DNA of 38,129 nt from Chloroflexota bacterium (GTDB lineage: Bacteria; Chloroflexota; Dehalococcoidia; UBA2979), in NCBI GenBank assembly GCA_009840965.1, contig VXMT01000037.1, positions 1-38,129 on the forward strand. The letters run 5' to 3'. Within the stretch, counting starts at the first letter, position 1, and each line of letters opens with the position of its first letter. The notes under the pieces were generated by a model. It was not told the origin of the DNA and did not search any database. It saw nothing but the letters and a program-made list of their open reading frames with translations. A program made the translations under genes and the position numbers. Shown here piece after piece: positions 742-33,510 of the stretch.

Positions 742-1496
742 GCGCCGACGACGCCGGCGGCGGGCCGTACGCCGTCGAGACGATCGACATCTCCAAGCAC
801 TTCGGCGCCGTTCACGCCGTCGATCACCTCAGCGTGTCGATCCCGCACGGAGGCATCACGAGCATCGTCGGGCCGAACGGCTCGGGGAAGTCGACGCTCG
901 TGAACCTGCTGAGCGGCGTGCTGCCGCTGGACGGGGGCCTCGTGATCCTCGATGGCGTCCGGCTGCGCGTGGTGAAGGCGCACGAGACGCCCGATCACGG
1001 CTTCACGCGCACGTTCCAGGAGGTGCGGCTCTTCGACCAGATCAGCGTCCGCGACAACATCATGGTGGTCCTCACCAGCCGCCGCCTGCTGCCCGCCCTG
1101 CTCGAGCGAACGAAGCCGAGCCACCGGGCGCGCACCGAGGAGATCCTGCGCGAGGTCGGGATGTGGGAGAAGCGGGACTCGCTGGCCCAGGACCTCTCCT
1201 ACGGCCAGCGCAAGCTGCTCGAGATCGGCCGTGCGATGGCCCTCGACGTGCGCACGTACCTGTTCGACGAGCCGTTCGCCGGGCTCTTCCCGCAGATGCT
1301 GGAGCGCGTCAAGGAGATCGTGCTGCGGATGCGCGATCAGGGGCGCACGCTGATCTTCATCTCGCACAACATGGACATCGTCCGCGAACTGCCGGACCAC
1401 CTGATCGTCCTCGACAGCGGCCAGCTCCTCACCGAGGGAGAGGTGCACGACGTGCTCAGCCGCGAAGAGGTGATCGAGGCCTACCTGGGCGACTGA
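738..1496 (+). CDS. livG: Branched-chain amino acid ABC transporter ATP-binding protein LivG
   Basis: Cytoplasmic ATPase subunit of the HAAT-family importer, 252 aa. Walker A is GPNGSGKS at about residues 45-52, the ABC signature is LSYGQRK, and Walker B is the hydrophobic run ending LFDEPFAGL; the switch histidine follows in FISHN. The ORF track starts this frame at 426, but that extension lies antiparallel in meaning to livM coding and has no family similarity. I choose GTG at 738, which has GGGAGG seven bases upstream and overlaps the livM stop by four bases. LivG normally pairs with LivF as a heterodimer, and livF follows 16 bases later. Confidence 0.92.
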   Translation: MSADDAGGGPYAVETIDISKHFGAVHAVDHLSVSIPHGGITSIVGPNGSGKSTLVNLLSGVLPLDGGLVILDGVRLRVVKAHETPDHGFTRTFQEVRLFDQISVRDNIMVVLTSRRLLPALLERTKPSHRARTEEILREVGMWEKRDSLAQDLSYGQRKLLEIGRAMALDVRTYLFDEPFAGLFPQMLERVKEIVLRMRDQGRTLIFISHNMDIVRELPDHLIVLDSGQLLTEGEVHDVLSREEVIEAYLGD

Positions 1497-25645: not shown

Positions 25646-26386
25646 TTGGCTTGGTCTTGGACATGCCCCCGCTGCCAGTCACCACAAGTCGTAACTGGTG
25701 CCGCTCTCGCTTTGGAAGGTGCGTTGCTGAGCGTCGACCCTTTGGGCGACCACGCTATCCGCGCCCAACTGATTTGCTGTGCCGCAGCCGAGTGCGGGGG
25801 CTACGAGCTCACGGTGAAGCATGGTCCTGGCTATTGGTCTCCCGGCCGTAGGAGCCTCGAGAACCTCATCTTCGATGAAGGCTCCACAACCACTCGACTC
25901 GTGCCGTCGTCGCGAGCGCGATCGTATCCCGACTATGTGCCTGCTCCAATACGTCAGGACTACGAGGAGGCGTGTGCAATCGAGCAAGCCAGTCCGAAGG
26001 CGGCCGCCACCTTGGCCCGCCGCGCGATCCAAGGAATGATCCGTGACTACTGGAAGGTCGAAGGAGAGAGAACCCTCTGGCACGAAATCGAAGCACTCAA
26101 GGGCAAGCCTGAAGTTACTTCCGAAACGTGGGAAGCGATCGATGCAGTTCGCAAAGTCGGGAACATCGGCGCGCATATGGAGAAGGACATCAACGTCATC
26201 ATCGACGTTGACCCGAATGAGGCGGCGGCGCTCATCGGCCTGATCGAGATGCTCATCGAGGACTGGTACGTCGCCCGTCATAGTCGCCAAGAGCGCTTGA
26301 CGATTGTGAAGCAGATCGGCGACTCAAAGGACGCGGCCAAGACCGCATCACCGGATGCCGCCCTTTCGGCAGAGGCCGCTCAGTAG
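25646..26386 (+). CDS. DUF4145 domain protein with N-terminal zinc-ribbon-like cysteines
   Basis: 246-aa protein of unknown function. Two cysteine pairs (CPRC at 7-10, and C-C with ECGG around 44-51) could form a zinc ribbon. The DUF4145 part runs from about residue 100 to 210: ASPKAAATLARRAIQGMIRD, LWHEIEALKGK, and VRKVGNIGAHMEKDIN, a motif type shared with HEPN-like proteins. DUF4145 domains also occur in restriction and defence proteins, but this one stands alone. Its GC content and third-position bias are clearly lower than those of prmC and guaB, suggesting recent acquisition. Start TTG 25646 is supported by GGAGAAGAG just upstream and by the position of CPRC. Confidence 0.78.
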   Translation: MAWSWTCPRCQSPQVVTGAALALEGALLSVDPLGDHAIRAQLICCAAAECGGYELTVKHGPGYWSPGRRSLENLIFDEGSTTTRLVPSSRARSYPDYVPAPIRQDYEEACAIEQASPKAAATLARRAIQGMIRDYWKVEGERTLWHEIEALKGKPEVTSETWEAIDAVRKVGNIGAHMEKDINVIIDVDPNEAAALIGLIEMLIEDWYVARHSRQERLTIVKQIGDSKDAAKTASPDAALSAEAAQ

Positions 26387-26409: not shown

Positions 26410-27561
26410 CTACCCCGGCATCTGCTGCGCGAGCTGGTAGATCTTGCCCTCGGTCTTGATCGAGGGGGCGATGACCATGCGGGCGGCGTGGAACTCGGCG
26501 ATGGACTGGGCGCCGCAGGTGGCCATCGAGGTGCGGAGGGCGCCGACGAGGTTCTCGGTGCCGTCCGTGCGCGAGGTCGGGCCGTAGAGCAGCGTGTCCA
26601 GCGTGCGCGGCTGGCCGACGTGCACGCGCACCCCTCGAGGCAGCTCCGCGTGCGGCGTCGCCATGCCCCAGTGGTAGCCGCGGCCGGGCGCCTCCTTCGT
26701 CGCGGCGAAGGGGGAGCCGATCATCACCGCGTCGGCCCCGGCGCAGATCGACTTGGAGAGGTCGCCGCCGGTGCGGATGCCGCCGTCCGTGATGATCGGC
26801 ACGTAGCGGCCCGTGCGCTCGTGGTAGAGGTCGCGCGCGTAGGCCGTGTCCAGCGTCGCGCTGACCTGCGGGATGCCGATGCCCAGCACCTCGCGCGAGG
26901 TGCAGGCGGCCCCCGGCCCCACGCCGACGAGGATGGCGTGGATGCCCGTCTCCATCAGCTCAAGCGCCGCTCCGGTGTCGACCGTGTTGCCGACGAGCAC
27001 CGGGACGGGGTCGATCTGCTCGACCAGCTCGTCGAGGCGCAGGCCGCGCAGCGAGCGGGAGACGTGGCGCGCGGTGGTGACGGTCGACTGCACGGCGAAG
27101 AAGCTGGCCCCGGCCTCCTTCGCGACGGGTGCGAGGCGCTTCGTGTTCTGCGGGGTGGCGCTGACGGCCGCGACGCCGCCGAGCTCGATGATCTCCTCGA
27201 TGCGCCGCCCCACGAGGTCGTCGCGGATCGGCTGGGAGTAGACGTGCTGGATGATCTCGGTCGAGTGATCGAGGTTGGCGGCGGCGATCTCCTCGTAGAT
27301 GCCCTCGGTGTCCTCGTAGCGGGTCTGCACGCCCTCGAGGTTGAGCACGGCGAGGCCGCCGGCCTTCGTGAGCGCCGCGGCGAAGGAGGGGTCGACGACG
27401 GCGTCCATCGCCGAGGCGAGGATCGGGACGCGGAAGCTGTGATCGCCGAGCTTAAAGGTGGGCTCGACGAGGTCGGGGTTGGTGGTGACGGCGCCGGGGA
27501 CGATCGCCACGTCGTCGAATCCCCAGGCGCGCTCGAGGCTCTTGCGCTCTACTGCCGTCAT
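26410..27561 (-). CDS. guaB3: GuaB3 family IMP dehydrogenase-related protein
   Basis: 383-aa TIM-barrel enzyme of the IMPDH/GMP reductase superfamily, GuaB3 subgroup, which lacks the CBS (Bateman) domains of normal IMPDH. The catalytic cysteine is in [20 protein letters not shown], the IMP phosphate site in [30 protein letters not shown], and the flap with [13 protein letters not shown] follows. GuaB3 proteins occur in cyanobacteria, actinobacteria and Chloroflexota, usually beside a true guaB; whether this copy oxidises IMP or reduces GMP cannot be decided by reading. Start ATG 27561 has GGGGGAGGG nine bases upstream. The long upstream leader has its own entry. Confidence 0.88.
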
Positions 27562-27743
27562 CGACGTGGTCCCTCCCCCGTGGCGCTCGGGCGACGCGGG
27601 GCGGCGAGGACGGCGACTGGGGAGAGCGCCCGGCGGTTCAGATACACAAAGACCCCGCCACTGGGGAGGGGTCCTGCTCGGGATGCGCCCGAGGCCGTCT
27701 GTTGCCGGGTTGTCGCATGGGTCCCGCCACGGTCACCCTGCTT
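27562..27743 (-). promoter_or_regulatory. Long structured 5' leader of guaB3, riboswitch-like
   Basis: From the likely transcription start at about 27743 the minus-strand RNA is 182 nt. It folds into adjacent helices: CCGT/ACGG enclosing CGGG/CCCG and the motif CCCGGCAAC (27695-27732); CTCGGG/CCCGAG with a 5-base loop (27677-27693); and GACCCC/GGGGTC (27651-27673) followed by TTTGTG. AAAG near the start can pair with CTTT after the last helix, closing a junction. The strand CCCTCCCC (27663-27670) can instead pair perfectly with GGGGAGGG of the guaB3 Shine-Dalgarno (27571-27579). Layout and CCCGGCAAC recall SAM-I/IV riboswitches, but key core bases are missing. No known class could be assigned. 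Confidence 0.5.
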
Positions 27744-27749
27744 TTGTGA

Positions 27750-27778
27750 ATGGTAGGGCCAGCCCGATCGGGGGTCAA
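27750..27778 (-). promoter_or_regulatory. Promoter of guaB3
   Basis: Minus-strand TTGACC, 17-base spacer, TACCAT. This is one of the best promoters in the window and implies transcription from about 27743. Confidence 0.7.
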
Positions 27779-27803
27779 CGCCGCCGCCCTCGTCGGGCGC
27801 CCG

Positions 27804-28529
27804 CTAGCGCACCTCGCGCGCGTACCAGCCCGTCCAGACGGCCTTGCGGCGGCGCAGCAGCGCGATGAACAGCGGGTTCGTCCAGATCAGCACCCGCCAC
27901 AGCGGCCACTTGTCGAAGCGGCGCGTCGAGGGCGCCACGCGCGGCTGCCGGATCAACGCGACCTTGCGGCCCGTGTCCCGGGCGAGCCGCTTGAGGCTCC
28001 AGAAGAAGTCGACATCCTCCCCGATCCACGCCTGCTCGTCGTAGCCGCCGGCTTCCTCGAAGGCCGACGCTCGGCAGAACTGCGTGGCGCCCTGCGCCAT
28101 CCCCGCCAGCTCGGCAAGCCGCCGCCAGGCGCGGAGGTAGAGGCGCGCGAAGCGGCGTCGCGGCCGGTAGTCGACATCGACGGCGCCACCGAGGCAGGCC
28201 GGGTCGCCGAGCACCGAGTGGATCGCCTCCAGCAGCGAGGGCGGCACGATCACGTCGGCGTCGACGAAGACCAGCACCTCGCCGTTGGCGTGGCGCGCGC
28301 CGGCGTTGCGGGACCGCGCGATTCCCTGCACCGGCTCGTGGATCACCGTCGCGCCCTGCATGAGGGCGACGGCGGCGGTCCGGTCGCCGCTGTTGTTGTC
28401 GACGACGATCATCTCGACCGACCCGCCGGCGCGGTCGAGCAGGCGCGTTGCGGCGGCCTCGATCGCCTCGAGGGTCGCGGCCAGCCAGGCCTCCTCGTTG
28501 TAGGCGGGGACGATGATCGAGAGCCTCAC
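27804..28529 (-). CDS. Family 2 glycosyltransferase
   Basis: 241-aa GT-A fold glycosyltransferase. The N-terminus RLSIIVPAYNEEAWLAATLEAIE is the GT2 nucleotide-sugar site, VDNNSGDRT follows, and the metal-binding DxD is in LVFVDADVIVPP. GGAVDVDYRPRRRF and GEDVDFFWSLKRL (the ED catalytic region) complete the fold. No membrane helix is evident except a weak hydrophobic segment near the C-terminus, so it is probably peripheral. Sugar and acceptor are unknown; candidates are envelope glycolipid or polysaccharide synthesis. I choose GTG 28529 over the track's earlier start, because TACGCT lies six bases upstream and the conserved domain begins at residue 2. Confidence 0.85.
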   Translation of the reverse strand: MRLSIIVPAYNEEAWLAATLEAIEAAATRLLDRAGGSVEMIVVDNNSGDRTAAVALMQGATVIHEPVQGIARSRNAGARHANGEVLVFVDADVIVPPSLLEAIHSVLGDPACLGGAVDVDYRPRRRFARLYLRAWRRLAELAGMAQGATQFCRASAFEEAGGYDEQAWIGEDVDFFWSLKRLARDTGRKVALIRQPRVAPSTRRFDKWPLWRVLIWTNPLFIALLRRRKAVWTGWYAREVR

Positions 28530-28535
28530 GGGGTC

Positions 28536-28565
28536 AGCGTACCGCGACGCCGAACTGTGCGGCAC
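28536..28565 (-). promoter_or_regulatory. Promoter of the glycosyltransferase gene, leaderless
   Basis: Minus-strand GTGCCG, 18-base spacer, TACGCT, then six bases and the GTG start codon. Confidence 0.5.
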
Positions 28566-33457: not shown

Positions 33458-33462
33458 AACGA

Positions 33463-33490
33463 CGGGAGCCGGCCCGGAGGCCGGCTCCCG
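33463..33490 (-). terminator. Terminator of the peptide transporter operon
   Basis: A perfect 12-bp stem, CGGGAGCCGGCC with loop and GGCCGGCTCCCG, is followed on the minus strand by TCGTTTAAC. It lies 20 bases after the solute-binding protein stop. The short T-run makes it a good intrinsic terminator candidate. Confidence 0.75.
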
Positions 33491-33510
33491 CATCTCTCGC
33501 CTGTGCGAGT

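Follow-up and report, generated by a model that had tools for sequence, protein, structure and literature searches.

The window, i.e. the whole stretch of 38,129 nucleotides that was analysed, carries on its reverse strand the gene guaB3 and, upstream of it, the leader considered here (Table 1). The gene behind the leader is indeed guaB3, as an earlier preliminary description had it: its product matches the TIGR01304 profile with 388.8 bits (cut-off 342.1), and the assembly has no other convincing gene of the IMP dehydrogenase family, its remaining PF00478 matches being short barrel fragments. IMP dehydrogenase catalyses the first committed step towards GTP. In most relatives, guaB3 and metG are divergent neighbours; in the window, a glycosyltransferase gene separates them. 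A further open reading frame (ORF) of 246 aa at 25646-26386 (+), starting with CPRC, has no NCBIfam match.

Genome searches found guaB3 in 37 of the 44 genomes of the host's family; those neighbours that carry a name are Dehalococcoidia/Chloroflexi metagenome genomes. The host's own genus comprises four species (L001-L004), one of which (L003) is represented by a contig that ends early and covers part of the 5′ block only. One record titled Dehalococcoides mccartyi (L034; GuaB3 73% identical) matches a contig of the family relative G029, and its title looks wrong.

Table 1. Features of the guaB3 leader and of related loci.
Feature	Positions	Strand	Remarks
guaB3	26410..27561	-	GuaB3-family IMP dehydrogenase-related protein, 383 aa
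guaB3 Shine-Dalgarno sequence	27571..27579	-	GGGGGAGGG
Short upstream ORF	27638..27718	-	26 codons, ATG to TGA (MRQPGNRRPRAHPEQDPSPVAGSLCI); spans both hairpins
Terminator-type tail	27641..27650	-	TTTGTGTATC; UUUGUGU after hairpin II
Hairpin II, putative attenuator (intrinsic-terminator type)	27649..27675	-	AGGACCCC...GGGGTCTT; -15.2 kcal/mol, z -2.1
Hairpin I	27677..27693	-	CTCGGG-CGCAT-CCCGAG, CTCGGGCGCATCCCGAG; beats shuffles when folded alone
Genus-conserved 5′ block	27698..27749	-	nearly invariant in the genus
SAM-core-like segment	27701..27709	-	CCCGGCAAC; inside the start of the short ORF; reads CCTGGCAAC in other genus members
GGCGGGA motif	27722..27728	-	just before the short ORF; Shine-Dalgarno-like, common to many family leaders
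Sigma-70-type promoter	27750..27778	-	TTGACC-17-TACCAT; predicted transcription start ~27743
Glycosyltransferase gene	27804-28565	-	upstream of guaB3, same direction; TIGR04283-like, below cut-off
Cobalamin riboswitch aptamer	L143 1578-1745	-	Rfam; before BtuF-type transport gene, then CCCCTC...GAGGGG terminator
Cobalamin riboswitch aptamer	L154 1288-1434	+	Rfam; before BtuF-type transport gene, then CCCCTC...GAGGGG terminator

The promoter that had been claimed for guaB3 is present and recurs in relatives. It is the only such promoter in 700 bp, with 0.0 expected in shuffles, and nearly all high-GC relatives have TTGAC boxes and -10-like hexamers upstream of guaB3. If transcription starts about 7 nt past the -10 box, it follows from the promoter match that the predicted leader would be about 182 nt long.

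The whole leader is no more stable than its shuffles (z=+1.02 for 182 nt and z=+0.14 for 104 nt); two local hairpins, I and II, beat shuffles when folded alone (z -3.1 and -2.1, respectively). They correspond to two of the three helices proposed initially, namely CTCGGG/CCCGAG (27693-27677) and GGACCCC/GGGGTCT (27674-27650), both of which stand, whereas the first helix breaks within the genus. In the latter, CCGT at 27732-27729 pairs with ACGG at 27698-27695; the pairing is broken in L004, weakened in L002 and without its 3′ side in L003, whose contig is cut upstream. The 3′ side reads CACA in the two genus members that lose the helix. Among the genus members, hairpin I has undergone two compensatory double changes (CTCGGG/CCCGAG to CCGGGG/CCCCGG). 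In eight leaders outside the genus (L009, L010, L013, L016, L021, L022, L117 and L120), the sequence after hairpin I is an AGYGTGYGY-like tail similar to that of the terminator, and by their sequence such leaders may hold tandem terminators. An extra pairing suggested by RNAalifold, between the tails of hairpins I and II, was rejected as only YGYG motifs pairing with themselves, with almost no double changes.

Between its promoter and the start of the gene, an attenuator of the intrinsic-terminator type is expected to form a stable G+C hairpin; hairpin II lies in that position, downstream of the promoter, and covaries. Every high-GC genus read has, between the promoter and guaB3, a hairpin built on a CCCC/GGGG core, with tails such as TTTGTGTA, TCTGCGTT and TGTGCGTA. 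In the low-GC genera of the family, guaB3 is present but the hairpin is missing. Covariation was assessed by pair counts on an alignment of 21 leaders, where 94.1% of the hairpin II cells pair and 29 are double-changed; shuffles give 13.0 such cells and sliding no more than 10. The outer pairs covary (p=0.005, 0.0007 and 0.0002 by re-dealing), pair 2 changing between A-U and G-C (p=0.0007) and pair 3 among A-U, C-G and G-C (p=0.0002).

The hairpin and its tail are also nearly specific for guaB3. The pattern CCCCTC-loop-GAGGGG-NNNN-YGYGT has 23 matches in the 44 family genomes, 18 of them directly upstream of guaB3, and the reversed control pattern has zero in the same genomes. One other match lies directly after gyrB; two share the same hairpin sequence (L156 and L157), the former directly after a branched-chain transporter permease gene; and two come directly after cobalamin aptamers confirmed by Rfam, in the leader of a BtuF-type gene for cobalamin transport. 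At all five positions, one would expect a terminator. The glycosyltransferase gene of the window runs in the same direction as guaB3, and hairpin II could in principle be the terminator of that upstream gene, or a chance G+C hairpin, with no regulation involved. We consider this extremely improbable, since the upstream neighbour in most relatives is the divergent metG, and hairpin II persists there in its promoter-proximal position with covariation. In 21 of 27 loci, metG starts upstream of guaB3 on the opposite strand, so that hairpin II usually cannot end the transcript of a neighbour.

A T-run terminator scan of the region finds no terminator, and the tail of hairpin II, UUUGUGUAUC, is not a run of U. 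The tail does resemble those of the 3′-end hairpins of the lineage, which we surveyed in 400 kb of G029 (L162-L181) using our own gene calls: [CT]GT occurs within 9 nt in 20 of the 31 strong hairpins just after stop codons, against a background of 0.197 (p ~7e-8). It also resembles the platforms of the cobalamin riboswitches (RF00174) in L143 and L154, in which the same type of hairpin, ACCCCTC...GAGGGGT followed by UCUUUGUGU, stands between aptamer and gene; the end of the L143 hairpin, GGGGTCTTTGTGTATG, is almost letter for letter the GGGGTCTTTGTGTATC of the window. These two leaders have a recognisable upstream aptamer, whereas the guaB3 leader has none. Because the 3′-end tails of G029 and the cobalamin platforms match it, hairpin II looks like an intrinsic terminator by the rules of the lineage itself. 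Being terminator-like and usually unable to end a neighbour's transcript, it is probably a premature terminator, i.e. an attenuator.

In place of T-runs, the terminator-type hairpins of the lineage end in short tails such as TTCGT, TGCGT or CGTT, which T-run scanners would miss. Another hairpin of the terminator type lies in the window at 33462-33491 (-), with the tail CGTTTAACC. In L154, a c-di-AMP riboswitch (RF00379, 66.5 bits) is found at 977-1100 (-), divergent from the cobalamin leader.

The preliminary description had read the leader as a metabolite riboswitch, with a segment like the core of SAM-I and SAM-IV. The segment CCCGGCAAC is present and, as in that clan, the leader combines it (or CCTGGCAAC) after a GGGAC stretch with three short helices. 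It is conserved in the four species of one genus only. In addition, unlike members of the clan, the leader does not keep the helix that must enclose the segment across the genus, has no core after the third helix, and precedes a gene outside sulfur metabolism. Rfam, with which a comparison had been suggested, matches no family in 27400-27900, either at the gathering scores or at E<=10. SAM models match none of 16 family leaders at E<=1, and the loci of relatives give low-scoring Rfam matches only, all unrelated and below gathering scores. A DNA search for the leader across the family has a clear match only at guaB3 of the own genus and does not find the 5′ block at guaB3 of the other genera; a search against plasmids has no match. 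The 21 aligned family leaders contain no common aptamer-like core. Purine (guanine/xanthine) and PRPP riboswitches are known before purine genes in other bacteria. The guaB3 leader would share with them the control of a purine gene by premature termination but, unlike them, matches no Rfam family.

A riboswitch of an unassigned or diverged SAM-like class would have the 5′ block and hairpin I as its aptamer and hairpin II as its expression platform. Consistent with this, the 5′ block hardly varies among the genus members, whose coding DNA is 87-96% identical, CCCGGCAAC/CCTGGCAAC resembles the SAM core, and the cobalamin riboswitches of the family use the same type of hairpin. Set against the negative Rfam searches, the confinement of the block to one genus, the lack of a common core and the broken first helix, however, such a riboswitch seems improbable to us. 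The conserved block, moreover, holds an ATG followed by synonymous changes. From the RNA start through the SAM-like segment, the leader is nearly invariant within the genus, and the region from hairpin II to the Shine-Dalgarno sequence has diverged with indels. The SAM-like segment is well explained as codons, because codons 2-6 of the short ORF differ within the own genus by synonymous changes only. We see a slim chance that the 5′ block and hairpin I make up a small aptamer of a novel class, perhaps for a guanine nucleotide, and govern the guaB3 terminator, with faster-evolving sensors placed on the same hairpin elsewhere.

Another suggestion had been that a strand of the last hairpin pairs alternatively with the Shine-Dalgarno sequence of guaB3. 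The complement exists: CCCTCCCC, in an arm of hairpin II, can pair along 8 nt with GGGGAGGG, close to the start of guaB3, giving a duplex of -19.4 kcal/mol. Moreover, a re-formed pairing in L004 reaches -19.7, and both exceed their cross means (-14.4 and -15.2), as would suit a translational switch in which this arm sequesters the Shine-Dalgarno sequence. What fails is co-adaptation across genera. In a set of 19 leaders, pairings within a leader show no advantage over those with swapped partners (-12.7 vs. -12.9, p=0.67), and any G-rich ribosome-binding site pairs with C-rich arms, which makes a translational switch very improbable. An upstream antiterminator partner for hairpin II was also looked for, and none is co-adapted among the leaders (p=0.83). 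The ribosome alone could act as antiterminator.

A short ORF with a ribosome-binding site is expected of a leader-peptide attenuator. An ATG with a ribosome-binding site (match <= -4 kcal/mol) is found in 12 of 15 representative leaders, compared to 2.7 in dinucleotide shuffles with a maximum of 7 of 15 in 400, counts that are uncorrected for shared ancestry. Counted from the predicted transcription start, the best-scoring ones are 25-82 nt away, mostly 25-44. In the own genus, codons 1-6 of the ORF are conserved, with synonymous substitutions of the kind CAA/CAG, CCC/CCT and AAC/AAT. The ORF is intact in all members compared of the genera g12, g8 and g15, with its length and usually its stop kept; it is not intact in both g6 members. 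In g12, g8 and g15, there is no excess of third-position changes, second codon positions varying as much as third. The stop falls before, inside or after hairpin II depending on the genus, and the peptide, which differs between genera, shows no residue enrichment by eye. Since the second codon position is as variable as the third and the stop shifts across genera, a leader peptide that senses a residue is not supported; a leader peptide conserved across genera was rejected on the codon-position counts. A hairpin presenting the Shine-Dalgarno sequence of the short ORF was likewise rejected (mean z -0.34). The short ORF and its conserved ribosome-binding start nevertheless point to attenuation coupled to translation.

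In other Dehalococcoidia families (L059, L060 and L062; also L044, L047 and L048), an ORF located some 100 nt before the guaB3 match continues in frame across a similar hairpin and on into guaB3. The arrangement looks as if the leader ORF had been fused to guaB3 as an N-terminal extension.

The attenuator might instead respond to an RNA-binding protein, or to polymerase pausing and NTP supply, and the short ORF would then play no part. In favour of such control, conservation in the leader is highest in hairpin II and its tail, and the short-ORF peptide is not conserved. Furthermore, GGCGGG is conserved before the ATG, yet GGCGG is not enriched before gene starts in the relative G029 (48 vs. 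54 in the control) and is therefore not a usual Shine-Dalgarno sequence there; it may do more than bind ribosomes. The ATG and its ribosome-binding site are kept well above shuffles, however, even where their surroundings have changed, and we regard control by a protein or by pausing as unlikely, though deserving of consideration.

On balance, we lean towards the guaB3 leader being a transcription attenuator with translation of the short ORF as its most likely control. RNA polymerase would start at the TTGACC/TACCAT promoter and soon make a strong G+C hairpin followed by the tail UUUGUGU (27675-27641), where part of transcription would stop before reaching guaB3. The short ORF would begin about 25 nt into the RNA and extend across the hairpin region, so that ribosomes translating it could hold hairpin II open. 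guaB3 would then be transcribed when translation keeps pace and left off when it does not. Termination coupled to translation as such is the likeliest gate; the attenuator may report, for instance, the rate of translation or the supply of guanine nucleotides. Thus, what remains of the on/off leader first proposed is a cis-regulatory leader whose hairpin is conserved, covarying and near guaB3-specific, and probably not a riboswitch. Conservation in close relatives, whose absence would have refuted that proposal, does exist, but it is the conservation of a probable attenuator with a short ORF.

A comparable case is the ilvB-II motif of Corynebacterium, a uORF-dependent attenuator whose peptide is enriched in branched-chain amino acids (PMC10272879). 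Both are conserved leaders first seen as candidate structured RNAs, with a start codon near the 5′ end, a short ORF, a biosynthetic gene downstream and control by attenuation, which for guaB3 is proposed. In contrast to ilvB-II, the short-ORF peptide before guaB3 varies between genera with no amino acid standing out by eye. In the open-licence literature searched, we found no report of guaB3 attenuation or of this leader.

If this reading is true, GTP synthesis in an uncultured lineage of Chloroflexota is controlled through early termination, possibly with a link to translation. Other attenuators of the lineage may be overlooked, because terminator tails of the YGYGT type escape standard T-run scans.
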